From positions 1-29,252 of IMG/VR virus record IMGVR_UViG_3300020419_000066: a DNA stretch of 29,252 bases. The stretch is one strand, 5' to 3'. Shown here piece after piece: positions 1-29,252 of the stretch; the stretch's first letter is position 1, and each line of letters opens with the position of its first letter. The position numbers and the translations under genes are program-made. The notes beneath the pieces were generated by a model, which saw only the letters and a list, made by a program, of their open reading frames with translations, did no database searches and was not told the DNA's origin. This DNA comes from a virus.

Positions 1-618
1 TTGGGATCCAGAGGATGTATGTGTTGTGTTAACCTGAAAGACATTATTTGTGGATGTGTCTTTGACAAGATCTCTTTCATTATAATCTGTGCCAGAAGCC
101 CAGTTACCTCTATTGGTCCCAATATTTGTTGTAACGGAAATATCACCAGTAGAATCAAAGCCGAATATTTTGTTTGCTCTGTCTGTTGGTGAGTTAGAAA
201 ATTCTGAAGAAGAAATAGTATTTGTAACAGAAGCTTTAATAGATCTATCGACTTCTTCCTGGATCTGTTGCACATGCATTGTGAGACGATCTAAACCTTC
301 TTCGTGAGACTCGGCTGGGAAAGGATCGTTTTCAACATAATCATGGGTTTGAGTTAAAGCTACTACTCTTTGTATAATAACAGTCTCGGTATTAGTTGGT
401 GTATTGCCACCAGTAAAAGTTACATTACCACCAGAAGCAGATCCTACTCCTGACACATTGTAGTGAGTTGATATTGTCTTTAATGTTTCGGTCCCAGTAG
501 CAGATCTTATATAAACCTTTAAATCTGAGTTTGCTAATATCTTAAAGTTGTAAGCAAAAACAGTTGTAGATCCATTTCCTGAAAACGATACTTTGTTTGA
601 TGTTGTTGATAATGTCAT
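1..618 (-). CDS. Tail fibre protein, T7 gp17-like N-terminus (partial)
   Basis: The reverse complement from the ATG at 618 is open for 206 codons to the left edge, so the C-terminal, receptor-binding part is missing. The first ~115 residues follow the T7 gp17 N-terminal pattern: an early SFSGNGSTTVFAYNF stretch, then SDLKVYI, a Gly/Thr-rich segment before VTFTGG, then VIIQRVVALTQTHDY, NDPFPAESHEEGLDRLTM and a QQIQEEVDRSIK helix. In T7 this domain attaches the fibre to the tail. Residues ~135-206 look like the start of a beta-rich shaft or carbohydrate-binding part. It begins one base after the stop of the 1122-aa gene, so it is probably translated from the same transcript. Family assignment is confident; receptor specificity cannot be read. 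Confidence 0.88.
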   Translation of the reverse strand, partial: MTLSTTSNKVSFSGNGSTTVFAYNFKILANSDLKVYIRSATGTETLKTISTHYNVSGVGSASGGNVTFTGGNTPTNTETVIIQRVVALTQTHDYVENDPFPAESHEEGLDRLTMHVQQIQEEVDRSIKASVTNTISSSEFSNSPTDRANKIFGFDSTGDISVTTNIGTNRGNWASGTDYNERDLVKDTSTNNVFQVNTTHTSSGSQ

Positions 619-619
619 T

Positions 620-3600
620 TTAGTAACCTTGCCTTTCTAATAGTTTATTTTCTCTTAATCCTTTCATATAAATTTGCCTTATACGAACAGCTTCAGGTCC
701 GTACCTTCTTGGGTTTGCCAAAAGTTTTTTTAAATCTGCGTTTCTTAATTTTCTTACATAACCTTGAGCTAGTTCAATGCATCTATCTCTAGCGTTAAGA
801 TCTGTTTTGTTGCTTAGAACAAACCTTTTTTTGTTCATTCGATAATCCCTATCTGATCTTAATTTTCTCTCAATTATTCTGTTGTAATTTTTTGCATAAT
901 ACTTTTGCAAAAACACATAAAGATCACCTCCATCATCTTCTTTATAAAAATCTATTGTTACACCATTATGTTGAAACTTTGGTTTTACAAGAGTTGGTCC
1001 TCCTCCAAATAATTTCCAATCCTTTTGCAAATTTGTTAAATTTTCAGGGGTAAAAGATTTGCTTGCAAATGGACTCCACATTTGTCTTAAACCTTCTTTT
1101 CCTTCTTTTAATTCACGACCATGTAAATCCATCCTAGGAATTAGATTGTCTTTTAAACCAGGTATAGACATCATGAATTTATCTCTCATGTTCATAGTTT
1201 GTCGCATTGTTGGATCTGCCACTTTTGCTCCAGCTCTAAAAATATTTGGAATAAAAGAAGCTACTAAATTTTGAATATATTTTTCACCATATCTTTCTGG
1301 TTCAAAAATAGCTTTTATAAATTGATCTGCTCCTGAAGCGAATGTTTTGTTTAAGACTGCATTTTCAATAGCCAAAGCAGATGCGAGCATAAGTTGCATA
1401 ACATCACCTTCGTTATCAGCATAAATTTCTGGAGAGCTTGTTATTTTATGTAAATCCATACCAAGCATAAGCCATGATGAAAAAGGCTCTAAACCTCTTA
1501 TTGGCATATAGTATGGTTTACCTTCCCCATCAAATCTTAATATAGAATATTCAGGAGCATATTCTAAAGCATCCACAGTTCTTGCAACCCTTTTATTATC
1601 TTTCCATTGTGATTTTAAAGTACCAGCTTTAACATTTGGATATTGCTGTCCATCAGGTCCAGTTGTAAATCCACTTGCAAACATCATTGATCCAAATAAC
1701 AAAGTATTACCGCTTGCAAATCTCATTATGGCTGTTTCTCTTTCTCTGGCAGTACCAGATATTAATTTTCTTCGAAACTCTTTTGATGCAAATGCTAGTG
1801 GAGATCCTTCGGCAAATGTTACTTTTGCAATATTTAATGGTGTTTTAAAGAACGGCAAAGCCCATCTCATTGGAGTTGATTGAATAAAACTTTGAGCATT
1901 CTTTGCTGTTTTTCCTAGCTCTTCTTGAAATGTCATGTAGCTTGCAAATTTTTGAGATTCTTTTAATGCTTCGTATGGAGGATCTGCTACAAATTCTGCG
2001 ACAAAATTTAAAAAACTACTTCCAGTAAGACCTTTTGATTTTGCTGTTCTTTGAGCAAGCATGGTAATTTCATATCTTTGAGCTAAAACTTTAAAAAATA
2101 CATCTTCTGAATTTAAAATATTTGTCGGTGCATTAAATGTTTTGCCTATAGCATTAAACATATGTGCCATTAATGGAGCTTCTGGATCAAAATAACCCAT
2201 AACATTTGATTTATCTATTGAGTTATTTGGAGATGTATAACCAAAAGTCTCTGGACTCCAGCTGTTATTGTTTTTATTAAGCTCGTCAAATTTATTATTA
2301 CGACCAACATGTGGTGCTGTTCCATAATAAAAAGCCCTTATAGCTTCATCGAAAGCAAGCAACATTGCTCCAGTTGAAGCGTGTACTTCATCAAGCTTTA
2401 TTCCACCATAATCAAAACCTAATTTCTCTGATATTGTTCCAACAGTTCCTAAAGCATAATTTTCTATCATATGCTTTCCCATCATTAAGCCGTTACCAAG
2501 TATATTTCTAATATGCGATACTGGTAAGCTTAGAAGAGAGTTAATCCAAAGCTCATTTACTAGCTCTATACCAATGTTAGATCCGTCTTTACTTGCCCTG
2601 TAATAATCTCTTGCAAATCTATTTCTTCTATGACCTTCTGGCATATCTTGATATTTATAAAAAAAATCAATTAAGTTTTCTTTACCACCAAAAGTATCAA
2701 GCATTACTTTAGCTTCTTCTTCAGAAATGACACCTAGTTTGGTTTCTTTGTCTTCTACTAAATCAGATCCCTTAAATTCAAAACTTTCTGGCTTAGTAGT
2801 TCTTTGATCAATTTGACCTTCAGGACCATAACCAGAAGGTCTTCTAAAAGACACTACAGCTCTACCTAAATTAGTTTTAATTCCAGATATTTTTAATTGA
2901 ACATTTGCTACTATTTCATATTGCTGTCTAGCTTTTAACAACATATCATTGCTAACATCTTCGCCACTTCTAATTAAATCAATCATGTCGTTAAGTTTGC
3001 GAGTTTCAATATTATAGAGATCTCTCATAGCCAAGATATATGGCATAGGAGGGATTTCACCTGGCTTGTTAGCTAATAACCTTTTTAAGAATTTTTTGTC
3101 TGTTAAAAAAGTAATATCACTTATGTTCTGCATAAGATCAAAAGAGAGCTTGTCTACTCCTCCAGTTTCAGCAGTAAAAGCCTTGGAATAATATTTTACC
3201 AAATAAGCAAGGGACTCTTCAAAATATAAATCTTCTGGAAACTTGTTATTGTTAGGATCTACCTTGCCATCTTTCTTTCCAAAAATTCTTGTGTTTCCAA
3301 TAAGACCATCGTTTAAAGCTGGATCATCATATATTGTATCAGATATATCGTTTATAAAATCGTTATCAGTAAGTTTAATATAATTAAGTCTATCAGAATC
3401 GTAAGTAACACCTTCCTCTGATAATATTTTTCTTATTCTTTCTGTTTTCTCTTTTGCCGTTAATGATACATCTTCGTTAATTCTATTAACTTCATCTTGC
3501 AAAGCTTGTTTTTTTTCATTTAAAAGTTTACTTGCTTGCGCCCATGTTTTTAGACCAGGAATTTTTTGGATAAACTCCATGGGATTTCCAAAATTTAAAA

Positions 3601-7168: not shown

Positions 7169-9058
7169 TTATTTAACCTTATCTACATCTGAATCTATTT
7201 TGTATTTATCCAAAACTGATGGATCATAAGCATTAGCCATTAAAACAACATCCTCTAGCTTTGCTTCAAAAGATGCTTTTCTAGTTTCAGTTCTTTTTGC
7301 TATAGGAAGACCATTATAAGCTAAACGCATGTCTTTTTTAAATTGTTCTGGATTTGCTTTTATTACTGGAAAAAATAGTGAAGCCACATCACCAAGATCA
7401 TCATCATCTTCATATAAAGAATTATAATTATCTATAACATCTGATCCAAACGCTATGGCTAAAGGTGTAAAATCATCTGCTATAATTTCTGCTTGAGTTG
7501 TGTAGTAATCTATTACTGCTTGATTATAACTAGCTTTTATTTGATCTGTAGTAGGATAAACTCCATCCTTTGGTGCTATAGCTACTACAAAATTAGATAA
7601 AATTGAGCTTTCAGCAAGAGTTGTATTTGTTCCAAATCCATCCTCTAAACTTAATGGTTTTAATTTAGCTTTTAATTTATCAGTGTGTAATTCTACTTGT
7701 CTTCCATACTCAGTATCTCTATTTTGCCTTCTTGAAGTTATTAATGCATTTCGAGACAAGTATTCATCATTAAGCATTTCTTTATTAATAAATTGAGTAT
7801 TTATTTGATTTTGAAGCCTGTCAAGCTCTCTAGGATCTTTAGCCTTATACAAAGCTGTCATAAAATCACTAGTATTGCTTCTTGATGCTCTTGTTAAAGA
7901 TCCAAATTCTTGATTGTTCACAAATAGTTTTAATGTTTTAAAAGTGGCTTCATCTATATTTTCACTATACAAAGCATGATCCAATCTTTTTACATCAAAG
8001 TTTTCTTTTTGTGTAATTATATCTTGTATAAATTCAAACTCTTTACCTTTGATTGCTTTTTGTTTTCTTGACTCTTCTAGGTCTAATGCAAGCTCTTCCA
8101 TTTGATTATTTTTTTTTATATTCTCATAAACAGCATCATAAGATTTCTTAATTAACTCATCTCTTAATGTCTTTGTCATATTGGGAAATAATTTATAAGA
8201 TCCATTTGGACCTTTCTCATTCAGTCTATCAGCATAATCTTTTATTTGATTTTGCAAAACTTCTTCGTTATCAGAATTTTCATTTTGTGCTAGTCCAGCC
8301 GTCATATTGTTTAATATGCCCTCACTAATAAGATTTGTTAGTGTTTGAACATCCTCGTATTGATCAGCATAGTTTTTATATAAATTTGCTTTTCTTTTTT
8401 GATCAATAAGACCATCTGGTCCAAAAATCGCATCGTATGCAATTGCACCTTCAGCAGTATCGTGGTTTTCAATTAAATCAGAAATTAAACCATCTTCTTT
8501 TTGTTGAAATGAAGCCGTTAAGTTATTAGTGTATTGTATTGCTGATATTTTTTGAACATTTGGATCACCCAAAAGATCAATGTTATCAAATGATAAATTT
8601 GCAGTAGTTTTTACACTATTATTTTTAACAATATCATTTGCACTGCCATCTGCTTTAGCATTAAAAACAATTTGATCACCATCCTGTCCATGAAGAGATT
8701 CTAATGTATAAGTAGCTCCACTTAACAAAGCAAGTCTTGCTTTTTCTCTTTCAGTTTTTACCCAAGCCGTTACATCTGTTTCACCATTTAAAAGCTCGGC
8801 TCTTTTTTGAATATGTACTGAAATTTTCTTATATTCATTTTCAATTCTTTGTGCATCAGAAGTGTTTTTAATTTCCTGAAGCTGTTTTCCCATTTCAAAA
8901 ACTTGACCTCCAAACTGGCTGACTTGATTTCCAAAATTAGCTTGTGCCATAGCCCCTTGGGACAATGCTTGAGGATTTGCTTGTATAGAGAAATTTGTAT
9001 TACCTACCTCTCCAGATAGTTGAGTTTGTGCTTTAAATGTAGGGATTTTCATTGCCAT
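7169..9058 (-). CDS. Putative internal virion protein
   Basis: 629 aa, mostly alpha-helical and charged, with an N-terminal segment rich in Gln, Gly and Ala (residues ~20-65) and coiled-coil-like Lys/Glu/Gln stretches (~65-110 and ~320-345). No enzyme motif, signal peptide or membrane helix is visible. GGAG lies 6-9 bases upstream of the ATG, and a second in-frame ATG is the third codon. The gene lies between the gp14-like small protein and the 973-aa protein, the order in which T7-like phages carry the gp15-type internal core protein. The assignment rests on position and composition, not on a recognised domain. Confidence 0.6.
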   Translation of the reverse strand: MAMKIPTFKAQTQLSGEVGNTNFSIQANPQALSQGAMAQANFGNQVSQFGGQVFEMGKQLQEIKNTSDAQRIENEYKKISVHIQKRAELLNGETDVTAWVKTEREKARLALLSGATYTLESLHGQDGDQIVFNAKADGSANDIVKNNSVKTTANLSFDNIDLLGDPNVQKISAIQYTNNLTASFQQKEDGLISDLIENHDTAEGAIAYDAIFGPDGLIDQKRKANLYKNYADQYEDVQTLTNLISEGILNNMTAGLAQNENSDNEEVLQNQIKDYADRLNEKGPNGSYKLFPNMTKTLRDELIKKSYDAVYENIKKNNQMEELALDLEESRKQKAIKGKEFEFIQDIITQKENFDVKRLDHALYSENIDEATFKTLKLFVNNQEFGSLTRASRSNTSDFMTALYKAKDPRELDRLQNQINTQFINKEMLNDEYLSRNALITSRRQNRDTEYGRQVELHTDKLKAKLKPLSLEDGFGTNTTLAESSILSNFVVAIAPKDGVYPTTDQIKASYNQAVIDYYTTQAEIIADDFTPLAIAFGSDVIDNYNSLYEDDDDLGDVASLFFPVIKANPEQFKKDMRLAYNGLPIAKRTETRKASFEAKLEDVVLMANAYDPSVLDKYKIDSDVDKVK

Positions 9059-9604: not shown

Positions 9605-10063
9605 TTATAGCTCCTTGTAAATTTTTGCGTATGTATAATAATCTGTTTCGTTAGGTCCGTATTTTTGGTGAAAGCCTTCTCTTTTAAATCCTAGGTATTC
9701 AATAAATCGGACCGCTTCTTTCCAGTCAGTTAAGACATGGGTACTTACTCTTTTGTATTTTTTATGCTTTGCAATTACATCAATTGTTCTTGATGTTATT
9801 TTTATTATTGACTTTGCGTGTTTTGGTAAAAGATGAGTTCCGTAAAACCAAGCATCGCCATGATGTTGCCATAGTTCCATAATTCCACCACAAGCTATAA
9901 TTTTACCTGAATCATCTACGGCAGTATAAGCACCACCATCGTCAACATGTTTTCTAGACCACTCTCTCCAATTCACTAATGGGTTTCTCATTTCCTCAGT
10001 AGCAGATCCATATGGTTTTTCTAACCATGAAACATGCGATGGCTCAAAAGGTATTAATCTCAT
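9605..10063 (-). CDS. GNAT-like acetyltransferase in T7 gp13 position
   Basis: 152 aa with a GNAT-like layout: the N-terminal MRLIPFEPSHVSWL helix, central strands with AYTAVDDSGKIIACGGIMEL (typical beta2-beta4), a helix after HLLPKHAKSIIKITSRTI where the acetyl-CoA site would be, and a C-terminal WKEAVRFIEYLGFKREG, the common GNAT 'residue-pair then GF' ending. The expected (Q/R)xxGx(G/A) pyrophosphate loop is not clear, so enzyme activity is doubtful. T7 gp13, which I recall as grouped with acetyltransferase-like folds, sits at the same place between tail tubular B and the small internal protein, so a virion-assembly role is as likely as acetyl transfer. Its start overlaps the stop of the tail tubular B gene by one base. 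Confidence 0.7.
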   Translation of the reverse strand: MRLIPFEPSHVSWLEKPYGSATEEMRNPLVNWREWSRKHVDDGGAYTAVDDSGKIIACGGIMELWQHHGDAWFYGTHLLPKHAKSIIKITSRTIDVIAKHKKYKRVSTHVLTDWKEAVRFIEYLGFKREGFHQKYGPNETDYYTYAKIYKEL

Positions 10064-12627
10064 TATCTCTCAAATGTTTGTAGTCGTGGATAGATAGATA
10101 AAACTGTTAATGGTAACGGCTGGTCCGATACAACATAAATAAATCCATCGCTATCATAACCAGAAGTAAACTCAATTGTCTTATCACCAGTATACAGATC
10201 TAAAGGCTGGTCCATTTCATCAGCAGAGCTTCTAAAAGGAATAAGATCGTTAGTTGCTAAACTTTGTCCAATCTTTAATCCAACAGTTCTAAATAATCGT
10301 ATAGTAACATCGTAGATCCTTTTTGTTTTACCTTGTGATGTTCCTAGAGTTGCTCCAGCATCTACTCGCATAGTCTGAAGTGTAGATGTATATTTTAACC
10401 CAAAGTGAACAGTCTTTGCAGATCTATTTAATGTAATAGATCCACCTGAGACAGTTACATCTGGATGCGTAGCACCATCAGCTAGAACAGATAATGTTTG
10501 CCCTTCTAAATGTCCAAGACCAGAGAAGGAAGTAAAAGCACTTGATGTGTAAGATGATAATCCAGAATCAACAAAAAAGGCATCTTTTACATCAGTACCA
10601 AAATCAAAATAATTAAATCTTTCTACAAATCTTTTTGTGGCTCCGTTAATAGTTCTTTTTACAACAACATAAATATCATCTTCATCAAGTTCACCTGGAA
10701 TAGTTGTTATACTTTCAACAACACCATATGGATAAGTTATGTTTGGTGAAACAGATGTATCAATCCAAGATCCGCCAAGAGTATGCTCATGCCATGCAAC
10801 AATATTTTCTTCTCTTCGGTATGTCATACACGCAAGCTTGCCGTTATTTAATACGCACCAAATTGTATTGTCTGGTTCTTGCGCATGTGCCATTTCTTTA
10901 ATGCCAGATGAAGTTATATGCTCTGCCATAATCGTAAGATCTGGAGCTGTGTATGAATCTGTATCAAAACTATAAACTAGCTCTCTAACCTTTCTTCTTG
11001 CTCTTTGTACGAACAAGGTAACATTACCTACTTGCACTGGGCTTATGTTAGAAGTTCCATAATAAGCTTGTCTTTTTATTTGAGCAGATGTTGGTGATAA
11101 TGGTGCGTCAGATCCAGAAGATCTAACAGCAAATTCACCACCAGAAGTTCCAACAAGAAGAGAGCTACTAGAAGATAAATATCGGATAACATTTACCTGG
11201 TTAGATCCAATTGTGTAAATTAAACCATCGTCATCAGCGACACCAGTTGCAAAGTTTTCAAAGTCTCCGCCTTTACTAAAAAATAATGTTTGTGGATTTG
11301 AGCTTGTTCCAGCTAACACTAATCTTTCTTCATAAAAAGCTATTGCTCTGGGATAACCGCTTGTAGAAGAGAATGCTCCCATAGACCAATTTAAGTCATC
11401 TTCTAAAGATCCATTTATAGCTATAGCTTGTCCTACTGCTTCATTAACAAGATCATCAGACGGAGCTAATAAAATTGTATCTTCTGTAGATTGTACGATT
11501 AGTTTAGGAGGGTAACTTGAGCTTCCTACTGTTGCATTGTTTTCATTGTTTGAAGCTCCAGTAACCTCAATAGACATTCCTGTTTTAAAACCTTCTGTTA
11601 CAAAATTCTTTTCACTGTTAACAATTCTATCGTTATGCTCTAACCCAGTTGAAGACGGATCACCCTCTGCAAAACTAATTTTACTGTTACTTATAAAAGG
11701 CATTAGCTCTGCCCTGTTCTCTTCGTTTTCTTGTATAGTTGTATTAACAGAAGTTAAGCTAGTAACAGTTGCGCCAGAATTATGGGCTACGGCTGATGTT
11801 CCTAATTGTCCTCTAGCTACACCTGAATTTACAGAAGATCCAGACATAGATGTATATTTAATTATTTCGTCACCAATTTTAAAATAACCACCAGGGCTGT
11901 CTGTTTGAAATCCTGTATTACTTGCAATGTTAAATGAAGTCGCAGAGTTATTTATTCCTGACGATAATGTTGTTGTTACTAAGGCTGAAATTTTTGTGTA
12001 ACCATCGTGAATCTTTATTAGCCTTCCTACATCTGTACTTAAAAATCCTTGACCATCATTTATGCCAACAACATCACTTGCATAAATATATGCAGATCCA
12101 GTACGGCTTGAAGCTCGCATAGTAGTTGCTGTTAAATTAATATCCATCATTGGACCATTTTTGAAATTAACTTCAGTCAAGGTCCAATTAATATGGCTTG
12201 TTCTGGTAAGCTTTCTTACTGGATGATCTGGATGTACTAAGTACATTACATCAGCAGATTGAACAAATTTTATATCCGCTAGTTGTGCAGATGTGTATGT
12301 TGTAACTGTCTCAACAATGGTGTTTCCACCATCGACAATAATTCCACCATCACGATAAAAACGAATATAGTTATTACCAAATTCTAAGATATAAGTTTGT
12401 GTTACATTAAACTCAAAAGGAATAAGACGAGAAGCATTAGCCGAAGACTTTACCTCATTTACAAATATAGTTCCTGGTCTTCTTGATACGCCACCATGAG
12501 GATGGACCAATAAATTTTTCATCTGAGTTGCACCAGTGAAATATTTTTCTAAGTCAGTTCTACCTGACATTTTTTCACTTAGCTCTCCAGAAGTAAAAGC
12601 ATTAAAGGCTGGGGCAGATTTAGCCAT
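10063..12627 (-). CDS. Tail tubular protein B (nozzle), T7 gp12-like
   Basis: 854 aa, close in length to T7 gp12. The N-terminus (AFTSGELSEKMSGRTDLEKY, then MKNLLVHPHGGVSRRPGT) is a characteristic signature of podovirus nozzle proteins. The body is rich in beta strands, Ser, Thr and Gly. Around residues 255-290 there is an RGQLGTSAVAH-type insert often seen in tail proteins of BPP-1-like phages. Mid-protein ISPVQVGNVTLFVQRARRKV and WCVLNNGKLACMTYRREE are further family-like segments, and the C-terminus PLPLTVLSIYPRLQTFER is typical. It forms the distal tail tube and binds tail tubular A. It lies 2 bp after tail tubular A and is translationally adjacent to the GNAT gene. Confidence 0.88.
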   Translation of the reverse strand: MAKSAPAFNAFTSGELSEKMSGRTDLEKYFTGATQMKNLLVHPHGGVSRRPGTIFVNEVKSSANASRLIPFEFNVTQTYILEFGNNYIRFYRDGGIIVDGGNTIVETVTTYTSAQLADIKFVQSADVMYLVHPDHPVRKLTRTSHINWTLTEVNFKNGPMMDINLTATTMRASSRTGSAYIYASDVVGINDGQGFLSTDVGRLIKIHDGYTKISALVTTTLSSGINNSATSFNIASNTGFQTDSPGGYFKIGDEIIKYTSMSGSSVNSGVARGQLGTSAVAHNSGATVTSLTSVNTTIQENEENRAELMPFISNSKISFAEGDPSSTGLEHNDRIVNSEKNFVTEGFKTGMSIEVTGASNNENNATVGSSSYPPKLIVQSTEDTILLAPSDDLVNEAVGQAIAINGSLEDDLNWSMGAFSSTSGYPRAIAFYEERLVLAGTSSNPQTLFFSKGGDFENFATGVADDDGLIYTIGSNQVNVIRYLSSSSSLLVGTSGGEFAVRSSGSDAPLSPTSAQIKRQAYYGTSNISPVQVGNVTLFVQRARRKVRELVYSFDTDSYTAPDLTIMAEHITSSGIKEMAHAQEPDNTIWCVLNNGKLACMTYRREENIVAWHEHTLGGSWIDTSVSPNITYPYGVVESITTIPGELDEDDIYVVVKRTINGATKRFVERFNYFDFGTDVKDAFFVDSGLSSYTSSAFTSFSGLGHLEGQTLSVLADGATHPDVTVSGGSITLNRSAKTVHFGLKYTSTLQTMRVDAGATLGTSQGKTKRIYDVTIRLFRTVGLKIGQSLATNDLIPFRSSADEMDQPLDLYTGDKTIEFTSGYDSDGFIYVVSDQPLPLTVLSIYPRLQTFER

Positions 12628-15867: not shown

Positions 15868-17529
15868 TTAGACTTCCTCCGTGTCCATTTGATTAAAAGC
15901 TTCTACCATTGGAGCTGAGTTTTTTGCTATTTCGGCTTGTTGCATTTGCTCTTGCATCTGACCTTGCTGTTGTTGCTCCTCTTGCTTTTTATTTCTTCTT
16001 GCTTGGATCTCATCTTCTGATCGTATAACGGATGCTGGTATGGATAAGCTTTTTAATAAATGTTTAATTAAGCCATCGCCATCTAGGTGATCAATAATAG
16101 TTGGATCTATCTGTGCTACTGGCTGAACAACCTGGAGCATTTGCATTGTTGATTGCACATCTGTTTGCCTTTGAGCTTTAGCTAATGGAGATACATATTC
16201 AATCTCAATATCTTGACCAGCAATAACTTGTGGTGGTGGTGGCAATTGTTCTTGCCTTAATAAGATATTATAGCTTCTGTTAATAAGGGGCTGGAGCAAT
16301 TCAGCTTGTAATCTCCCCAGGACTGGACCAAGTAATCTCATTTTTTCCTCGGTCCTTGCAACCACCTCAGTAGCCGTCATTTGAGGACCAGCCCCCATGA
16401 CCAATTGATCGACATAAAACGCAGATCTTATCGCTTGTCGTCTTTGGTCTTCCATTTGCAGACCAAGAGGATTATTAGATCCAGTTTGTAAAGGCTCCAG
16501 TCTATCTCTTGTTCCACTTCTGTAGAAATTTAAACCACCAGGGACAGTTCTTATTGGTAACATAAAACCATCATCAGGTAACATAAGAGGAGGATCTACT
16601 TGTTTCTCAGCAGATCGGATTGTAACTTCACTCATTTTATTTAGCATTTTTACATCTGGTAACGCTTGCATAGCTGGGGATCTTCCGTACCCTCTTTCAA
16701 AACTTGCTTTTAAGTATCGAGGACACATGTATGGAAATTCGTCAAAACCAGATTCTTTGATGATTACTTTTTCCTCTGGATCTATGTAAATAGATGCAAA
16801 GGGTTTATTTTCAGAAGATAGTTTTTCAATATCTCTTTCATCTCTTGGCATAACAACATGAACGATCTCGATCTCTTCGTGAGGATTTGATTTCATAAGT
16901 TTGTTAATACGAGAAGATGCTTCTTCACCAAAAAGTTTTTGAGCAGATCTCACGGACATTTTATATTTTCTATAAACAGTATCGACTCTTCCTTCGCTAT
17001 CTTCAGCTAAGAAACACTCAGAGATATGTCTTGTCTCAAAACGAAAACCAGTTTCAGGATTGCTTTCAACATAAATAACGCCTGTGCCGAAAGTTATAAG
17101 ATCGTGGTAAAGTTCATGGATCTGTTCTTGAAAATTAGATCTATGAAAATGTGCATACATTATTGCTTCTACTTCTTCTAACCATTCTTTTGCTTCGTCA
17201 ATCAAAGTTAGCTGAAAGTTCATGTAGCATAAATTAAACCAGTTAGTTGATGCAGAAGTTAACATGCCGTGAATAGATGCTGATAAAAGTTCGGATGCAT
17301 GTATGGCTGTACCATCATAGATCTTATCCATTCTTTTATCGCCAGCAGATCTTGTACGAGTAAAGTCTGCTTTTCTAGGAACAATATAATCAGCAACATC
17401 TTGCCAATGATCTTCCCAAGATTCTCTTTGCTCTTCTAAAGAAGATAGTCTGTCTAAAAGTTTAGAAGCTATTTTTTTTGTATCTTCATTTATAGATGGC
17501 TCTACATCTATTATTTCTTCATCAGCCAT
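15868..17529 (-). CDS. Portal protein (head-to-tail connector)
   Basis: 553 aa, the usual size of the podovirus head-to-tail connecting protein family. Diagnostic blocks are ESWEDHWQDVADYIVPRKAD near residue 40, MDKIYDGTAIHASELLSASI, HGMLTSASTNWF, then FGTGVIYVESNP and ECFLAEDSEGRVDTVYRKYK, and later RGYGRSPAMQALPDVKMLN. The C-terminus is a Gln-rich tail (~505-530) with an acidic end. Twelve copies would form the ring through which DNA is packaged by the terminase. It lies one base after the 707-aa gene and abuts the Bbp19-like gene. Confidence 0.92.
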   Translation of the reverse strand: MADEEIIDVEPSINEDTKKIASKLLDRLSSLEEQRESWEDHWQDVADYIVPRKADFTRTRSAGDKRMDKIYDGTAIHASELLSASIHGMLTSASTNWFNLCYMNFQLTLIDEAKEWLEEVEAIMYAHFHRSNFQEQIHELYHDLITFGTGVIYVESNPETGFRFETRHISECFLAEDSEGRVDTVYRKYKMSVRSAQKLFGEEASSRINKLMKSNPHEEIEIVHVVMPRDERDIEKLSSENKPFASIYIDPEEKVIIKESGFDEFPYMCPRYLKASFERGYGRSPAMQALPDVKMLNKMSEVTIRSAEKQVDPPLMLPDDGFMLPIRTVPGGLNFYRSGTRDRLEPLQTGSNNPLGLQMEDQRRQAIRSAFYVDQLVMGAGPQMTATEVVARTEEKMRLLGPVLGRLQAELLQPLINRSYNILLRQEQLPPPPQVIAGQDIEIEYVSPLAKAQRQTDVQSTMQMLQVVQPVAQIDPTIIDHLDGDGLIKHLLKSLSIPASVIRSEDEIQARRNKKQEEQQQQGQMQEQMQQAEIAKNSAPMVEAFNQMDTEEV

Positions 17530-17530: not shown

Positions 17531-19654
17531 TTATGATCCTACTAAAGTTTTCTTGTTTACGCTTCCACCGAGAAGGGAAGCAGTACGAGTTTTGTTTCTA
17601 AAATTAGGTCCTCTTGTCTGACCTTGCTTTGTTGCATTTGGATCTTCATCACCTATACGAACAACATCTTTAGGTGCAAAGAAAGATCCACTGGATTGTT
17701 TTTTCTTGCTATCTTTTTTAGCTTTTGCTGTATTGATTTTTAATTCTTCTGTGGTCGTACCCCAAGCTTCGGCTACTTCATCTAGAGTTAACCCATAAGC
17801 CGATAGATCTAAATCTTCATTAGCTAACCAGAAGGTAGTTACATATTCTTGGTCCGTACCTCTAGCATCTAAAATCATTTGTTGAACAAGGAAGTTAGTT
17901 ACACCAAGCTCATTATCGGCAATACCATCACCGCCTACACCATAGGTCCAATCATCGCCAGCCTTCCAGGAGTAATCTGTTAAGTAACGCATTGCTTCTT
18001 CGGCTGTTAATGTTCTTCCTTCTCCATAAACAAGCTGTATTAAATTTCCTAAACCTTCGTATTGGCTATGATCTTGTATATTATCTAAACTCCATTTCTG
18101 AGAATTATCTAATCCAGAAACAAAGAGTACAGATTCAGCTAACCAATCAGATAAGAATTGATCCATATCGGCTTCAGATATTGTTCCGTTATATTGACCA
18201 GTATATTCTTTTACGAGTTCAAAATAATCGCCCATAGTTTTAGAGGACATAATTACGCCAGTTGTTTCACCCTGGTCTATCATTGTGTTCCAGAAAGCTG
18301 TTAATTTAACTTGGTCTTCTTCTGTTAAAGATCCGTCTTCGCCTGTAGCAAACAGACCTTCTATTTCACTATAGTAACCAACAAGCTCATCTGTTGTATC
18401 AGATCCAGTTGTTACTAAAATTCCTTCTAATGTTGTTTTAACAGTGTCATAAGTTTCTTGATCTAAGCCTGTATTGCCAACAGTGTTAGTATCGCCATCA
18501 CCATCACCATCGCCATCGCTAGATGAAACAGTTGTAGAAGTAAGAGTCATGCCTTCATAACCCTTGTTATCTTTTCCAACAAGCTGTCCGTTATCATTCC
18601 AATACATTGCAAAATCAATATCTTCGCTGAAAAAAGGGTTTCTACCACCACCAGCAAGGACAGTTGAAAAAATAAACCCTTTAGATCCATCTTCAAATGT
18701 ATGTTCTTCTATTTGCTCTGCTGATAGTCCTGTTTTTAAAATACCATCTGGTATACCATCGCCATCTTCATCTGTAGATCCTGTAAGCCAAACATCACCA
18801 GATTCTAAACCACTAGCAATAGTTGTATAACTTACATCAGTTGACTGTGTCTCTGCTGTAACAATATCAGTAGTAGTAGTTGCTCCAGCAACATAATCAA
18901 CGCCAGTAAACTGATCTGCATTTATAGTTTCGACTTCAGCTCCAGTTCCGTCTTCTATTCTATAAGTGTCAAGTTCCCCATCACCATTTGAATCAAAACC
19001 ATAAGCAAGATTACCATTAGCCAATTCAATTGGCTCAGTATTTATTGTCGATACATTTTCAAGTGTGTCGTTACCATCACCGCCAACAATAGAATCTTCA
19101 CCAGTTGCACCAGGTATGGAATCCTCCTGGCTAGATCCTGTGATTGGTGTTCTTGTTCCGTCATCAAGACCTATAAATTGTCCATCTTTGGACCACACAT
19201 AATTTGCATTTTCTATTCCAATGCTACTACCAAAATCAATATTAAGATTTTGTGTAAAAGTTCCGTCAGAGTTTTCAGTCCAAGTAGATTGTTCGTTATC
19301 AAACCCAAGTGTCTGCCAGTTAGGATCTAAAACAAAATCAGGAGTTACAGATTCAACATCAATACTAGCAGAAGAAGTAGCCCCATCAGCACCAGCAATT
19401 TGAGGAGTGTTATCAGTTGTCTCACCTGAAACAGTAGAGAGTAAAGTGGTGTCAAGACCAGTTGTTTTAAGAGTTGAATTAGCATCTATTGTTTCTCCCT
19501 CGGCTGGCACAACCTCATCAGGACCAACACCAGCATCATTATTCATTAAAGATCCACCAGAAGAGGAGACAGCATTAGCTGTTTGATTGTTTGGTCCCAT
19601 TAACAAATTAGGATCTATTCCGCTAAGATCTAACTCTAATCCTGTTGTACTCAT
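17531..19654 (-). CDS. Acidic calcium-motif-rich protein (RTX-, TSP3- and EF-hand-like segments)
   Basis: 707 aa, extremely rich in Asp, Glu, Gly, Thr and Ser. Visible motifs: an RTX-type turn GGDGNDTLEN (~190-200), an EF-hand/dockerin-like loop DSNGDGELDTYR (~221-232), a thrombospondin-3-like DEDGDGIPDG (~295-304), and a DGDGDGDGD run (~380-388) encoded by a 6-bp microsatellite. The second half has degenerate helix-loop-helix units: GEDGSLTEED (~438), YNGTISEADMDQFL (~486), EGRTLTAEEAMRYL (~543) and GGDGIADNEL (~577). The C-terminus is basic and ends KTRTASLLGG...NKKTLVGS. There is no signal peptide. It sits between the 165-aa protein and the portal gene, so a virion or assembly protein is likely. 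Calcium binding follows from the motifs and is not proven. Confidence 0.6.
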   Translation of the reverse strand: MSTTGLELDLSGIDPNLLMGPNNQTANAVSSSGGSLMNNDAGVGPDEVVPAEGETIDANSTLKTTGLDTTLLSTVSGETTDNTPQIAGADGATSSASIDVESVTPDFVLDPNWQTLGFDNEQSTWTENSDGTFTQNLNIDFGSSIGIENANYVWSKDGQFIGLDDGTRTPITGSSQEDSIPGATGEDSIVGGDGNDTLENVSTINTEPIELANGNLAYGFDSNGDGELDTYRIEDGTGAEVETINADQFTGVDYVAGATTTTDIVTAETQSTDVSYTTIASGLESGDVWLTGSTDEDGDGIPDGILKTGLSAEQIEEHTFEDGSKGFIFSTVLAGGGRNPFFSEDIDFAMYWNDNGQLVGKDNKGYEGMTLTSTTVSSSDGDGDGDGDTNTVGNTGLDQETYDTVKTTLEGILVTTGSDTTDELVGYYSEIEGLFATGEDGSLTEEDQVKLTAFWNTMIDQGETTGVIMSSKTMGDYFELVKEYTGQYNGTISEADMDQFLSDWLAESVLFVSGLDNSQKWSLDNIQDHSQYEGLGNLIQLVYGEGRTLTAEEAMRYLTDYSWKAGDDWTYGVGGDGIADNELGVTNFLVQQMILDARGTDQEYVTTFWLANEDLDLSAYGLTLDEVAEAWGTTTEELKINTAKAKKDSKKKQSSGSFFAPKDVVRIGDEDPNATKQGQTRGPNFRNKTRTASLLGGSVNKKTLVGS

Positions 19655-19693
19655 TTACTTTCCTTCTGGGGTATTGTTAAAAATTTTTTTGAC

Positions 19694-20191
19694 CTATGAG
19701 TCCAAAGTATCAAGAATTAAACTTTCTAATTCTTCATCTGGTGTCATAGTTATTTGATCTAAAGGAACAAAGCCCTGGTCTGCACCTTGCTCAATAATCT
19801 GATCTGAAGTTGCACCATCGGTAATACCAAAAGCACCAGCATAGGCTACTGGAGTCGGTGACATCAATCCCATTGGACCAGTGACGATTGTACTCTTCCT
19901 GGAAAACCTTCTCATCAGCATTTCTTTTGTTCTTTGAACCATATCTTTATAACGAATAACTGGATCAGGAGATATAGTTTCACCTTCATTGATCATAGTT
20001 GGATCTATTGGATCCCCAGCATTTAACATAATGCTTTCACCAGTTGTTGGATCTATGAAAGATTTCTTGTTTGAATATTCAGTTGTATACGATTCCGTTA
20101 CTGGTGCTACTGGATCTGTCTCCAAAGGATCATTTGGATTAGCTTGCGCTTGTGTTTCCACTGGAACATATACTTTCTTTGTTTTAGCCAA
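19694..20191 (-). CDS. Hypothetical protein in head-gene cluster (165 aa)
   Basis: 165 aa; N-terminal half polar and Pro/Thr/Asp-rich, then a basic helix MVQRTKEMLMRRFSRKSTIV followed by TGPMGL and an acidic end. The R-K-S-T-hydrophobic-x-TG-x-x-G-L turn is a motif I associate with small proteins near the terminase of BPP-1-like phages. Translation starts at a TTG (20191) inside the end of the terminase large subunit gene, with AAGGA nine bases upstream; no ATG fits better. The 8-bp overlap suggests coupling to terminase translation. Role unknown; head completion or linkage to the terminase are possibilities only. Confidence 0.6.
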   Translation of the reverse strand: MAKTKKVYVPVETQAQANPNDPLETDPVAPVTESYTTEYSNKKSFIDPTTGESIMLNAGDPIDPTMINEGETISPDPVIRYKDMVQRTKEMLMRRFSRKSTIVTGPMGLMSPTPVAYAGAFGITDGATSDQIIEQGADQGFVPLDQITMTPDEELESLILDTLDS

Positions 20192-21485
20192 TTGCTTTCA
20201 TCCTTTTATCAGATCCCAACGGATCCCATTTATTATCAGCAAAACTTTGTGGAGCTTGCTGGACTTGTTGTTGTTTTAAACCGACTGCCATATACCGAAA
20301 GGCATCCGCTCCGTGGCTGGTCCAATCGTGGACTGGCGTAGCTCGGAAAGATCTGGTCCTCTCATTGTAAGCTCGGTGATAATGCCGAAGAGCTTCGATA
20401 CCATCTTTGCAATTTTTGACATCGAACATGCACCTGGGAAGCATCATCTTCACAGCATGAATGCCATCTTCTATTGGCAATTTCGGAACAACCCTAAAAT
20501 TAATTCCAAGATCATAAGCTACTTCTCTTCTGGATCTTCCTGTACCAAGTTCACGGACCTCAATATCATGTGGTGCATTGTGTGTGCCGTATAAATATTC
20601 TTTATCTTCCAGGACACCAACAAAATGCGGAAGCCCCTCGTTTCTTACTTCATAATAATCGATAACAGATACAGCTCCACCTCTGGATGTTTGTGCAAAC
20701 CATATGGCAGTGCTATCGTTAAGACCAAGATCCCAGTAGGTATCAACCCTAAGAGAAGGATCGTAAGGGCATGTTGTAATTTTTCCATCTTCTTGTAACT
20801 GTTCCATCTCGGATCCAAAAATAGATCCTGGTATATTGGCTACCCAGCTACACTCAAACTCCTGATTGTATTGATCTGGAGACATGGTTTGTGATGCCTG
20901 GCGTAATTCCTCTTCATCTAATATATTTGTTTCACTAGCCTTATACAAAGCCGTATACCACTCAGGCTGTATTTCTCCATTCTCATAAAGATCATAAAAC
21001 ATATTATGTCCTTTAGGAGTTCCAATGAAATAACAAAAACCTTTTCTATCGGATAGAGCTGGTCTTATTACTTCTGGAAAGACACTCTCTGGCATGTCAG
21101 CGACCTCATCGATAACACAACCATCTAAATATATACCTCTAAGACTGTCTGGATTTTCCGATCCTAGGAGAGTTATTCTTGCTCCATTCGGAAGATCACA
21201 TCGCAATTCTGTTTCATTAAATTTTATATTGGGAATCTTACTTGTAAATTGTTTTATATAATCCCATGCCACCGATTTAGCTTGTCGGTATGTGGGAGCT
21301 ACATAGGCAAATCTTGGATTTTTTTTATCGCTAAGAATGCTTGCTCGTAGTAAATGATTTATAGCCATAACAGTCTTGCCGAATCTTCTATGGCAAACTA
21401 TTACAGCCCATCTATGATTGTCTAACTCCTGGTGCAGATCATTCTGCAAAGGTCTGGGAGTATAGGGTATGATTACCTCAGTCAA
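20184..21485 (-). CDS. terL: Terminase large subunit
   Basis: 433 aa with both enzymatic parts. The ATPase has Walker A CHRRFGKT (residues 31-38), an adenine-binding-like N-terminal RPLQNDLHQELDNHRW, Walker B CVIDE (123-127) and a FIGTPKGHN coupling motif (~153-161). The C-terminal RNase H-like nuclease has TYWDLGLNDSTAI with Asp252, and the final GADAFRY aspartate near residue 400. It pumps DNA into the prohead through the portal and cuts concatemers. The start is a TTG at 21485 with GAGGAG nine bases upstream; the frame has an upstream stop and no alternative ATG. Divergence around it is low and the gene looks intact. Confidence 0.95.
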   Translation of the reverse strand: MTEVIIPYTPRPLQNDLHQELDNHRWAVIVCHRRFGKTVMAINHLLRASILSDKKNPRFAYVAPTYRQAKSVAWDYIKQFTSKIPNIKFNETELRCDLPNGARITLLGSENPDSLRGIYLDGCVIDEVADMPESVFPEVIRPALSDRKGFCYFIGTPKGHNMFYDLYENGEIQPEWYTALYKASETNILDEEELRQASQTMSPDQYNQEFECSWVANIPGSIFGSEMEQLQEDGKITTCPYDPSLRVDTYWDLGLNDSTAIWFAQTSRGGAVSVIDYYEVRNEGLPHFVGVLEDKEYLYGTHNAPHDIEVRELGTGRSRREVAYDLGINFRVVPKLPIEDGIHAVKMMLPRCMFDVKNCKDGIEALRHYHRAYNERTRSFRATPVHDWTSHGADAFRYMAVGLKQQQVQQAPQSFADNKWDPLGSDKRMKAIG

Positions 21486-24407: not shown

Positions 24408-25331
24408 ATGATAAAAAATATAAACCCATCAGCTTTTGTTTTACATCAAGAGAGAGCTAATGCTATTTTAGTCGATAAGATACAACAGGATAAAGAATTG
24501 TCTAAAAATAATGTTCAATCACTTAATGAAAATAAACAGCATGCGCATCATTTAAGAAATGCATTAAACGAGTTAATAGTTTCATATAATTTAGAAAATT
24601 ATAAACTTGCTGAGTTTCTTAATATTAAAGCAGAAACAGTTTCAAAGCACAGGCATGGCAAAAGCCCAATAAGTTTTGAGATGGCTGAAAAATATGCGGA
24701 AGTTCTTATTGATGAATACAACATAGCAACAGATCCACTCGGCTTAATGACAAGTAAATGCAAGGATGCAGATCTATATGAAAATTCTCTTGCGCCTGGT
24801 CAAATGGAAATTATTGGACATTTCAATAGACCTGAAAGAGAGGTAAATCTTTTTAAAACTACTGATAGAAAGATGTTTTTAACATGTGAGTATTTAACGC
24901 ATTGGATGACTGTAGCTCGACCAGAAGTAAAGACCTCTGCTATTATGTTCTCTGGCTGGGATGATCAAAACAATTATCAAGATGACAGTGATTTTCACAT
25001 GCAAGATTTTCATTATTGGTTAGTTATCCATAGACCTATGGTAAAAAATATTATTCACAGGAATGCTTTAAATAGCTTGTCTGTTTGTAAGTTAAAAGAT
25101 TCAGATAAAATTCTTACTGGCATTTTGTATGAAAAACCAAGAAGGACAAGAAAGGCTCCTAGGTTATTTCAATTGTTAGATGAAGATTATTTACATGATG
25201 ATTATAAGTTTTTGCCTGTAGACCAAAATCTGGATGGGATAGAATTAGACTGGGCTACTCCAGTAATAACTTCTATAGTAAATCCATTTGCGCAAGGTAT
25301 GAAAGTAGCTTTTGAAGATACCGAAGAATAA
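24408..25331 (+). CDS. CI-like HTH transcription regulator
   Basis: 307 aa. Residues 65-89 (YKLAEFLNIKAETVSKHRHG) form a Cro/CI-type HTH, preceded by a coiled N-terminus rich in Asn and Lys. The C-terminal ~190 residues are unusual: they start with ENSLAPGQMEIIGHFNRPER and hold KILTGILYEKPRR near the middle, which faintly recalls the S24/LexA-like fold (PGQ..., strand, GxLxxxP), but the Ser-Lys catalytic pair of self-cleaving repressors was not found. It may be a repressor that senses something else than RecA. It has its own promoter and a strong terminator, so it is monocistronic and divergent from the leftward block. Confidence 0.65.
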   Translation: MIKNINPSAFVLHQERANAILVDKIQQDKELSKNNVQSLNENKQHAHHLRNALNELIVSYNLENYKLAEFLNIKAETVSKHRHGKSPISFEMAEKYAEVLIDEYNIATDPLGLMTSKCKDADLYENSLAPGQMEIIGHFNRPEREVNLFKTTDRKMFLTCEYLTHWMTVARPEVKTSAIMFSGWDDQNNYQDDSDFHMQDFHYWLVIHRPMVKNIIHRNALNSLSVCKLKDSDKILTGILYEKPRRTRKAPRLFQLLDEDYLHDDYKFLPVDQNLDGIELDWATPVITSIVNPFAQGMKVAFEDTEE

Positions 25332-27470: not shown

Positions 27471-27773
27471 ATGAAAGATGCAGAGGAAAACAGCATCTTG
27501 GTCAACACTAAGCAAGCTTCGCAAATTTTATGGGGAGACATTTCTCCCTCGGCTCAAAGAAGGACCACAAGACTTGCGAACAAAGGAGTCATCAAACATG
27601 TCAGAGAAGGAAAGCTCTACTGGTTCAATCGAATTGCCCTTAAACGAGTTGCTGGTGATACCGACAGAGAACAAGATAACAGTAGTAGTGCAAGGCAAGG
27701 TTTATACATGCAAGGCAAGCAAGCAAGTCTTGATCCGAAAAGCACAAGAGTTTTTAACAAGAGGAATACTTAG
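27471..27773 (+). CDS. Excisionase-like winged-HTH protein (100 aa)
   Basis: GGAGG lies five bases before the ATG, which abuts the preceding stop. Residues ~9-62 (ILVNTKQASQIL, then TTRLANKGVIKHVREGKLYW and FNRIALKRV) match the small MerR/excisionase-type DNA-binding fold with a wing (the VREGKLYW part). The last 40 residues are polar and low in complexity, and this stretch is overlapped out of frame by a second gene. A regulator or recombination-directionality role is possible, but no integrase is seen in this window. Confidence 0.7.
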   Translation: MKDAEENSILVNTKQASQILWGDISPSAQRRTTRLANKGVIKHVREGKLYWFNRIALKRVAGDTDREQDNSSSARQGLYMQGKQASLDPKSTRVFNKRNT

Positions 27774-27795
27774 TAAGGAAAATCCAAATGGCTAA
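27598..27795 (+). CDS. Overlapping small protein in +1 frame (65 aa)
   Basis: ATG at 27598 with AAAGGAG at 27582-27588, nine bases upstream, all inside the excisionase-like gene. The product runs MSEKESSTGSIELPLNELLV, then IPTENKITVVVQGKVYTCKA and a helical end, with strand-strand-helix periodicity that reads more like a real protein than the C-terminus of the overlapped frame. The frame is open further upstream to 27478, but only this start has an SD. Overlap with the first gene is 176 bp, with 22 bp extending past its stop. Function unknown. Confidence 0.6.
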   Translation: MSEKESSTGSIELPLNELLVIPTENKITVVVQGKVYTCKASKQVLIRKAQEFLTRGILSKENPNG

Positions 27796-27925
27796 AAAGT
27801 TGATACCAGGAAAAGAAAAATCTAAAGGCAAGAAGTACAGCCATAGACCAAAGAGATTTGAGGACCAATGGTTCTGCAAAGAAACAAGAACATGGCTAAG
27901 AGGTACGGATCCAGATGTCAGTTGA
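27788..27925 (+). CDS. Small basic protein (45 aa)
   Basis: Begins MAKKLIPGKEKSKGKKYSHR and has one Cys and four aromatic residues in the second half (RFEDQWFCKETRTWL). AAGGA lies nine bases upstream. The start overlaps the end of the previous gene by eight bases and its stop overlaps the next gene, so it is embedded in a dense early operon. Strong positive charge suggests nucleic-acid binding. No family recognised. Confidence 0.55.
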   Translation: MAKKLIPGKEKSKGKKYSHRPKRFEDQWFCKETRTWLRGTDPDVS

Positions 27926-28109
27926 TAAAGGTATGATTTTATACAATGCCTGTAGGGATCTTAATCACATCTGTAATGATGTATATCCATACGCACATGA
28001 AGATCATACTGTTAACGATAAGATCTTAAAAGAGATGTATTTAGATCTACAAGATCTTCAACAGAAATATTTGCAAGAAGTTAGAAAGCAAAGAGTTAAA
28101 CATGGATGA
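27915..28109 (+). CDS. Hypothetical protein (64 aa)
   Basis: A helical protein with a Leu/Gln/Lys-rich heptad-like C-terminal half (MYLDLQDLQQKYLQEVRKQR), probably a short coiled coil. The overlap with the upstream gene (11 bp) and with the downstream mini-gene (8 bp) supports its place in the operon, though its SD is weak. Function unknown. Confidence 0.5.
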   Translation: MSVDKGMILYNACRDLNHICNDVYPYAHEDHTVNDKILKEMYLDLQDLQQKYLQEVRKQRVKHG

Positions 28110-28191
28110 CTTTGATTTTTATTTACGAGTTATCATGGTAACAGTACTTGGATATGCCTTTTTTGTTAAATTATTGTTTAGTTTAGTATAA
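28102..28191 (+). CDS. Tiny membrane protein (29 aa)
   Basis: ATG at 28102, stop at 28191: MDDFDFYLRVIMVTVLGYAF and a short hydrophobic end, i.e. an acidic N-terminus and one transmembrane helix. It is the last gene of the rightward operon, followed by a hairpin. The SD is weak (AAAGAG), and a protein this short is easily a chance reading; the transmembrane pattern and overlap with its neighbour favour a real gene. Confidence 0.42.
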   Translation: MDDFDFYLRVIMVTVLGYAFFVKLLFSLV

Positions 28192-28203
28192 AAAACTGTC
28201 GGC

Positions 28204-28222
28204 ATGGCTGTTAGCCATTTTA
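28204..28222 (+). terminator. Terminator-like hairpin between convergent operons
   Basis: ATGGCT, loop GTT, AGCCAT (28204-28218) followed by four T. It sits 12 bases after the last rightward gene and lies between converging genes. The stem is short, so efficiency is uncertain. Nothing else was seen in 28192-28274. Confidence 0.5.
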
Positions 28223-28274
28223 AGCCCCATACAGAATCATTTAAAGTTTTAGATCAGATCGTATTAAGGACCTA

Positions 28275-28475
28275 TTAGTTTATCTTCTTAGGGCTTATAT
28301 GAAGTTTTTTTTCAGCCAAATACATGTTTGTAATGTCACTTACAAACTCGCTAATGCCGAAAGCTAAATTATGATCTAAAAGGTACTGCAAGGCATCTAT
28401 ATATTCTTGTTCCTCTTCACATTGTATCAATCCGTGGATCTTCATAATAACTTTGTAAAGATTTTCTTCTGTCAT
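28275..28475 (-). CDS. Hypothetical protein (66 aa)
   Basis: 66 aa, acidic and helical (YKVIMKIHGLIQCEEEQEYI, then a second helix ending GISEFVSDITNMYLAEKKLH), with no recognised motif. Its ATG overlaps the stop of the upstream gene (TAATG), indicating coupling. It is the last leftward gene before the convergence at about 28.2 kb. Function unknown. Confidence 0.5.
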   Translation of the reverse strand: MTEENLYKVIMKIHGLIQCEEEQEYIDALQYLLDHNLAFGISEFVSDITNMYLAEKKLHISPKKIN

Positions 28476-28774
28476 TAGTTTGTCTCTATAAACTTTTTTT
28501 CTGGCTTATAGCCATGATCAGAATCTTCACTTAAAATTGTTACTTCAATATTATTAGCAAGCATTCCCTGGATCAAACTTTCGGCTAACAAATCATCGAC
28601 ATTATATCCCATGTTGGTCCTTCCAGAAACATTCCTTCTCCAGTAGTCTCTCGCCCATTGATTGTTAGGATGGAATGTATATATTAACCCATGGCATACG
28701 ACATAGAAATCTATCTCATATGCTGGTGGGATCTCTGGTGATATGTTTGACGATGTTTCTTCCTCTGGTCCCAT
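28475..28774 (-). CDS. Hypothetical protein (99 aa)
   Basis: The frame opens at an ATG at 28789, but that ATG directly touches the U-run of a terminator and has no SD. The ATG at 28774 has GGAG eight bases upstream and is the better start. The product has an acidic N-terminus, then AYEIDFYVVCHGLIYTFHPN, a Trp/Arg-rich turn and an SEDSDHGYKPEKKF end. No family recognised. It is coupled to the 66-aa gene. Confidence 0.55.
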   Translation of the reverse strand: MGPEEETSSNISPEIPPAYEIDFYVVCHGLIYTFHPNNQWARDYWRRNVSGRTNMGYNVDDLLAESLIQGMLANNIEVTILSEDSDHGYKPEKKFIETN

Positions 28775-28789
28775 CTTTTTTTGCTCCAT

Positions 28790-28813
28790 AAAAAAAGGGA
28801 GCCGTAGCTCCCT
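28790..28813 (-). terminator. Strong rho-independent terminator
   Basis: On the minus strand AGGGAGC, TACG loop, GCTCCCT (28813-28807 and 28802-28796), followed by seven T. It lies 25 bases after the stop of the 114-aa gene and immediately before the 99-aa gene, so the latter needs read-through or its own promoter. Confidence 0.9.
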
Positions 28814-28838
28814 CTCATTAGTTAAATTTATTTTTTTA

Positions 28839-29183
28839 TTACTCGATTGTATAAACTCGTCCGCACCAATCTAAAAGAGACTCACCTTCTTCCAAGATTT
28901 CGTATGGTATAGAATTTTCATAAAGTTCTTTTATAGTCACCCACTTGGTATCTTGAAATGTTGAATGGCTAAATTCTTCTTTTGTTTTTTCTATAAATTT
29001 ATTAACCTCTTCAATGCTCTTCATAGCTATTTCATTGCCACACTGCCATCTTGAAAATGGGGTACCATCACCCATCTCCTCAACATGCGCCCTATAGTAA
29101 ATATGGTTTTCTGTAGCTTCAAATTGAAATAAATCAGAGACACTTTCGGATCTAAATTTTTCTATAGTGATTCGTTTGCTCAT
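28839..29183 (-). CDS. Hypothetical protein (114 aa)
   Basis: 114 aa, acidic, with alternating helices and strands: SVSDLFQFEATENHIYYRAH, MGDGTPFSRWQCGNEIAM, and a long helix IEEVNKFIEKTKEEF. The C-terminus ends with DWCGRVYTIE. No family or catalytic pattern was recognised. The ATG overlaps the stop of the upstream gene by four bases (ATGA), so it is translated as part of a unit that extends beyond the right edge. A strong terminator follows it. Confidence 0.55.
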   Translation of the reverse strand: MSKRITIEKFRSESVSDLFQFEATENHIYYRAHVEEMGDGTPFSRWQCGNEIAMKSIEEVNKFIEKTKEEFSHSTFQDTKWVTIKELYENSIPYEILEEGESLLDWCGRVYTIE

Positions 29184-29252
29184 AAGCTTGCCACCATATC
29201 TAAAGTTTTTTCATCCTGATAATTATTTAAAGCAATCACATGAGCATAAACT
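29180..29252 (-). CDS. C-terminal end of a gene cut by the right edge
   Basis: An open frame enters from the right edge and ends at TGA 29182-29180, with 23 codons visible ending KTLDMVASL. The ATGA overlap with the next gene is the main support. Too little is visible to name it. Confidence 0.5.
   Translation of the reverse strand, partial: VYAHVIALNNYQDEKTLDMVASL

Follow-up and report, generated by a model that had tools for sequence, protein, structure and literature searches.

The 29,252-base virus record IMGVR_UViG_3300020419_000066 (hereafter the window, meaning the whole stretch of DNA analysed) carries a confirmed excess of the palindrome RGATCY, with 129 copies among 221 GATC sites distributed over coding and non-coding DNA (1..29252). 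The phage is marine, and the window encodes podovirus genes, among them those for an ERF protein, a CI-like regulator, a head-tail connector and both terminase subunits, small (Sf6-like) and large; the named phages closest to it are HTVC010P-type Pelagibacter phages, with terminase and portal identities all below 60%. A second record in the IMG/VR database, G001 (37,079 bases), belongs to the window's population (99.8% identity over 28.1 kb), and the two join into a 38,155-base circle with 157 RGATCY and 274 GATC; because G001 adds an integrase (PF00589), the phage looks temperate. That selection or an equivalent drive acts on the motif itself is, in our judgement, very probable and well supported by the sequence, whereas the agent is not so supported. 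As developed below, we tentatively favour an explanation in which the modified site would be an asset to the phage, probably a mark of self.

Throughout, motif counts given as x/y are observed over expected, the coding expectation being drawn from codon-preserving (synonymous) shuffles. A sequence-only reading of the window had hand-counted three stretches (1-1240, 15961-17160 and 19550-20230), and its tallies of 13 + 17 + 14 = 44 GATC and 9 + 10 + 9 = 28 RGATCY proved exact; these stretches are richer in sites than the window average. Over the whole window, the 221 GATC compare with 95 expected from base composition and 151-156 from a second-order Markov model, and the 129 RGATCY with 58.9 from the latter. 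For a coding set of 27 open reading frames (ORFs), chosen greedily by length (26,112 bases) and not curated as genes, 113 RGATCY were found against 47.6 under synonymous codon shuffling, where the most extreme of 200 shuffles gave 64, and against 73.1 under shuffles that preserved the codon-junction bases too (maximum 86); the corresponding GATC count was 195 against 132 and 163. Codon-preserving shuffles, which the earlier reading had named as a means of refutation, thus fail to reproduce the RGATCY count, and the excess stands. In G001, coding RGATCY reached 135 against 61-63 under such shuffles, and when 3,112 motifs were scored, RGATCY had the highest z among those listed in G001 and in the related genomes G016 and G004; in G008, another relative, CCWGG outranks it. 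Nor are other palindromes equally enriched, the excess in G001 being smaller for GGWCC (53/28) and CCWGG (46/26), while GANTC is somewhat low across the window (67 against 94.5 expected).

The excess is also not the product of one codon pair, as the sequence-only reading had maintained, since it is found in all three codon phases: for phases 0, 1 and 2 the window has 52, 14 and 47 RGATCY against 19.5, 2.7 and 25.7 expected, and G001 has 59, 16 and 60 against 25, 2.8 and 34.5. Strictly non-coding DNA of four clade genomes, which are related and whose sums are hence not independent, holds 29 RGATCY against 8.0 expected from base composition, and 25 other GATC against 23.9. The same reading had set the CI-like regulator gene (24408..25331, plus strand) apart from the stretches counted by hand; that gene does contain only three GATC, but it is not exempt from the excess, as two of them are RGATCY against 0.6 expected. 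Site density varies along the genome, although a region-specific excess as such finds no support. The ratio of observed to expected RGATCY is 2.5 in genes that align with G004 and 1.9 in other genes, a difference that would fit an excess accumulating with residence time.

The claim of motif specificity holds with one amendment, namely that the enriched motif is RGATCY rather than GATC: in G001 the neighbouring classes RGATCR (80/79) and YGATCR (22/21) are neutral. Codon choice points to the same hexamer. Within the context RG-ATH-Y, isoleucine is encoded by ATC at 16 of 23 positions in G001, 19 of 30 in G016, 13 of 24 in G004 and 16 of 28 in G008, as against none of 13 in G013 and none of 6 in G014, two phages of a sister group described below; following a base other than G, the ATC share of isoleucine in G001 is only 9% and 15%. 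Serine after RGA is TCY at 59 of 71 positions in G001 (57-58% after other codons) and at none of 26 in G013. The shift therefore involves the C within GATC as well as the Y that follows it. The A/T pair is less clean, in that glycine before TCY in G001 is GGA at 41 of 46 positions but also at 12 of 16 before TCR, with 32 of 126 before other T-codons, and aspartate before CY is GAT nearly 100% of the time regardless of the preceding base. Words one base removed from the motif stand in G001 at RGATTY 105/130, RGATAY 83/103, RGATGY 97/80, RGAACY 34/67, RGAGCY 67/54 and RGACCY 25/31, so that no single donor is evident for the 70 extra RGATCY sites; lost sites likewise show mixed states with no single donor. 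RGATCY sites are also retained better than their one-off neighbours: between G001 and G016, 114 are shared and 35 unique, compared with 230 and 179 for one-off words (odds ratio 2.5, p 1.3e-5), and four further genome pairs, which share genomes, give odds ratios of 1.6-2.2 (p 0.037 to 6e-5).

This pattern extends to the window's clade, whose members are at least 85% identical in one of three proteins (portal, terminase or tail protein), in which ten contigs were tested and RGATCY stands at 1.9-2.5 times the codon expectation, or at about 1.6 to 2.3 at clade loci under the Markov model; one member, G019, is nearly identical to G008 over their overlap. By contrast, a sister group of three contigs, G013, L015 and G014, has 0/26.8, 0/14.3 and 6/24.5. 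In a portal tree of 64 rows from 72 contigs, six enriched rows of the clade form one group (100/100) adjoining that sister group (100/100), the two being joined at 99/91, and two more enriched contigs of about 50% GC, L159 and L136, sit elsewhere. Well-supported branches of this tree imply that the enriched state changed two or more times; site tracing into the sister clade met sequences too diverged to show whether the ancestor was enriched.

A wider survey covered 464 palindromic motifs in 72 related contigs, a motif being scored as avoided at no more than 10% of at least 8 expected copies and as enriched when z was 5 or higher and the excess 1.6 fold or more. Several motifs fell in both classes, CCWGG being avoided in 7 contigs and enriched in 15, RGATCY in 7 and 12, GGWCC in 23 and 6, and CAGCTG in 5 and 6, while others were only avoided: GANTC in 17, ACGT in 12 and GGCC in 11. 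The window's clade supplies 10 of the 12 RGATCY-enriched contigs. Close relatives differ in these respects, CCWGG standing at 106/38 in G008 and 28/27 in G004. G013, a sister that avoids RGATCY, has more of the neighbouring class RGATCR than expected (102/63). Comparable extremes are found in named phages, for example HTVC203P (GGWCC 32/12, CCSGG 14/2.5), HTVC019P (L278; GCSGC 46/8.7, GATC 0/82) and T7 (GATC 6/120, CCWGG 2/53). Words absent or nearly so from G001 include ACGT, GGCC, CCGG, CCCG, GCAGC/GCTGC, CCTGC, ACCGT, CTTAAG, GATATC, GAATTC, GAGCTC and GCTAGC, and the set varies among close relatives, G008 having GGCC and lacking GCGC.

Two origins that the sequence-only reading had proposed for the excess, a phage-borne methylase and an inherited host word bias, both went unsupported. 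For the former, Dam and D12 methylases gave no hit (PF02086 in 0 of 1 and 0 of 15 records, PF05869 in 0 of 23), C5 and N6/N4 methylases (PF00145, PF01555) were found in none of 11 window-clade records within 46 searched, and no methylase occurs among 38 proteins from the window and G001, these negatives covering the families with a model in those searches. C5 methylase genes were seen in the RGATCY-poor sisters, in G013 at C1:23916-24440, where two stops interrupt the frame, and in G014 at C1:14142-15284. The excess may nevertheless be linked to methylation in the host, RGATCY being a site of restriction-modification type that the sister phages lack.

The predicted host, judged from sequence matches, belongs to an order of AT-rich, small-genome alphaproteobacteria. 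The 3' end of a tRNA-Glu(UUC) is matched by G001 at 35245-35272 and by 32-36 bases of G004, where the match runs a few bases past the tRNA end. An exact 26-mer of this putative attachment-site (att) core occurs in 5 of 385 genomes from the class of an Ascidiaceihabitans genome; the three low-GC carriers fall in one order, in which 6 of 18 genomes contain the 26-mer. In G008, the integrase gene (37371-38567) is flanked by a complete tRNA-Glu(TTC) gene (36948-37022) and by a sequence resembling the att-like tRNA 3' end. A 66-aa ORF of these phages has a relative at 43-51% identity in the host-order genome G419 (43% over 61 aa for the window's copy at 28278..28475, minus strand, coordinates converted by hand from the joined circle), near a type II restriction gene pair; this is the sole phage-ORF match in 0.95 Mb of host-order sequence. 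The RGATCY counts of five genomes of the order, each sampled over 73-80 kb, are 68/90, 76/83, 57/74, 68/94 and 79/88, at or under expectation, and none of 13 smaller samples exceeds z 1.7, which leaves the inherited word bias without support.

Modification genes occur in the host-order genomes, N6/N4 methylases in 16 of 18 and C5 methylases in 8 of 18. A nuclease of the MvaI/BcnI family adjoins a methylase in G428, which also carries the 26-mer, and a TdeIII-type fragment adjoins one in G419. The latter lies on contig L283, where the nuclease fragment and the C5 methylase are found about 1.4 kb from the relative of the small phage protein (202-714, 773-2062 and 3443-3676); L283 could be a mobile element in its own right. 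MvaI cuts CCWGG, BcnI CCSGG and TdeIII GGNCC. A PADLOC scan of ten methylase-adjacent host proteins matched the C5 methylases to DrmMII models among many others.

We propose, as a possible explanation that we would hold only tentatively, that throughout the genome positive selection, or a drive of equivalent effect, acts on the RGATCY motif itself because the modified site would be an asset to the phage, probably as a mark of self. Host populations would carry changing type II modification systems, and for most phages an unmodified site would be a liability and be purged, the sister clade being an example. To the window's lineage, modified RGATCY would instead be an asset, most likely as a self mark; if a host defence were directed at DNA with too few marks, wherever it lies, each extra markable site would be rewarded, and copies could build up by weak additive selection. 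Restriction by itself can only disfavour sites. A modification mark whose number helps is favoured because several restriction-type palindromes switch sign between close relatives: CCWGG, GGWCC and CAGCTG, like RGATCY, switch between avoidance and enrichment among the 72 contigs, and gene pairs for type II nucleases and methylases are present in host-order genomes. The host, the modification and the benefit to the phage we infer from these patterns.

Several observations weigh against this explanation. The portal was found in none of the 18 host-order genomes and no prophage was found, in a set that had no positive control; an RGATCY-specific enzyme was not identified, no host-order nuclease being shown to cut RGATCY, and modification of the motif in this lineage is itself presumptive. 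High-z words likewise occur in T7 (CTNNNAG 210/124) and lambda (CCGG 305/222), and the association between enrichment and avoidance is weak over 290 motifs (odds ratio 3, p 0.03). Better retention is not unique to the motif, since between G001 and G016 RCATGY (58/67) and GGWCC (74/87) come close to RGATCY (228/263). Finally, a mark-sensing, site-independent defence is hypothetical for the host order, the idea being drawn from the biology of DISARM and Dnd.

Among the alternatives, methylation-biased mismatch repair would generate the sites as a by-product, mismatches in near-matches to the motif being resolved toward methylated RGATCY in a host that bears an RGATCY methylase. Such a drive acts at any motif position and predicts better site retention, as seen, and a ratchet of this kind has a published model for cyanobacterial highly iterated palindromes (PMC4390886). 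It also predicts an enriched host chromosome, which the five host-order samples do not show, although a recently acquired host methylase would escape that test; the one MutH-like protein (G420, 1 of 18 genomes, near the Pfam cut-off) sits beside a methylase gene in the manner of a restriction pair. We consider this explanation unlikely. We regard as somewhat less probable again the proposal that RGATCY is the recognition site of a phage or host DNA-binding protein, serving packaging, replication, recombination or nucleoid function and rewarding many sites. The phage-specific, additive and genome-wide character of the excess would suit such a role. However, no consensus extends beyond the six bases, except that G is scarce just ahead of the site and C just behind it, spacing is uneven (largest gap, 3,017 bases), several motifs are enriched per genome and differ between relatives, as with CCWGG in G008 and G004, and related phages do without RGATCY. 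Under a binding-site reading, one phage would have to use several such motifs.

The excess could alternatively be a scar or side effect of avoidance, past or present avoided words having been shifted to RGATCY. Many words are indeed absent from the window's population, and the raised RGATCR of G013 shows that avoidance shifts neighbours; yet shuffles barred from creating 30 absent words yield only 64.6 RGATCY in G001 (maximum of 12 runs, 72) against 135 observed, and 64.4 in G008 (maximum 76) against 125, and all one-off neighbours would have to have been avoided simultaneously in the past, which makes this account improbable. An ordinary cause, whether the use of codons and amino acids, the word bias of the host or a one-base mutation bias such as very-short-patch repair or deamination, seems to us the remotest of these explanations. 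Codon use does lift the expectation above base composition, codon-junction bases lift the window value to 73, and in G001 RGAACY is depleted, with RGATTY and RGATAY somewhat so; the observed count was never reached by any shuffle, however, and the host is not enriched. A one-base bias in particular would have to accommodate the joint shift of two bases (the C within GATC and the Y next to it), the lack of a single donor among lost sites, and the absence of CTWGG depletion (78/86) in G008, a genome with excess CCWGG.

Individual genes of the window vary in their share of the excess. On the minus strand, RGATCY stands at 12 against 3.8 in the gene for an 854-aa tail protein, tail tubular B by likeness to pelagiphages (10063..12627), at 12 against 5.1 in the head-tail connector or portal gene on which the family tree is based (PF12236; 15868..17529), at 12 against 4.9 in the gene for a 707-aa protein (17531..19654), at 7 against 3.0 in the terminase large subunit gene, counted from the first ATG (PF03237; 20184..21485), and at 4 against 0.9 in that of the Sf6-like small subunit (PF20901; 21852..22250). 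The gene for a 629-aa protein (7169..9058, minus strand), which aligns poorly with G004, shows no excess (3 against 3.2). One protein among the 38 from the window and G001 matches the PBECR5 nuclease domain (E 3.6e-19), and an Rfam scan of six phage stretches gave no match at gathering thresholds.

Enterobacterial phages avoid GATC, a habit linked to methylation, and the motif described here shares that core with the opposite sign, T7 having 6 GATC against 120 expected. The phenomena nearest to the present one are restriction-site avoidance and the iterated palindromes of cyanobacteria. Restriction-site avoidance is known in prokaryotic viruses, and one such study mentions over-represented sites (GCNGC, Type III) only in passing (PMC6286503). 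Our phages conform in that type II palindromes deviate, with the sister clade and many words of the window genome showing avoidance, and depart from it in that RGATCY is over-represented in the window's clade. In cyanobacteria, highly iterated palindromes (HIP1 and variants) show an excess linked to methylases (PMC4390886). The likeness lies in a methylase-type palindrome with a GATC core that is far commoner throughout the genome than composition and codon use would predict; the present case differs in concerning a phage rather than a cell, a degenerate 6-mer, an unenriched predicted host and a sister lineage without the motif, and, unlike HIP-like systems, no cognate methylase model matches in the clade records searched or the 38 proteins from the window and G001. 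For pelagiphages, one report describes GANTC depletion in about half of 33 genomes and otherwise normal density, with the Pelagibacterales genomes studied there lacking restriction-modification systems (PMC9516812). Both cases concern related phages of marine alphaproteobacteria, with clades that are unlike in a methylase motif, but here the motif is another one, which one clade has in excess and its sister lacks. Some Helicobacter pylori genomes over-represent the sites of widespread systems (PMC4687349). A literature search, with subscription journals and preprints largely outside its scope, found no report of RGATCY enrichment in phages or of such mirror-image sister phages.

The excess in the window's clade, together with depletion in its sister, suggests that one and the same site may help or harm a phage according to its host. 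A broader form of this proposal, which we regard as doubtful, is that restriction-modification motifs are two-signed, being purged where they are cut sites and accumulated where modification serves as a protective self mark, such that enriched palindromes would reveal which modification systems operate in the hosts that a phage lives in. If true, the two-signed reading would be made general by the excesses in a second lineage (L159 and L136), in HTVC203P and in HTVC019P, and the named, culturable pelagiphages with comparable excesses make the idea testable. The two sister clades also form a natural comparison for studying why methylase-type palindromes build up in certain genomes, a question still open. 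Restriction sites in phages are usually taken as neutral or harmful; selection for one would reveal a second force between phage and host and, if the selection reading is true, a signature readable from metagenomes by which host modification systems may be inferred.

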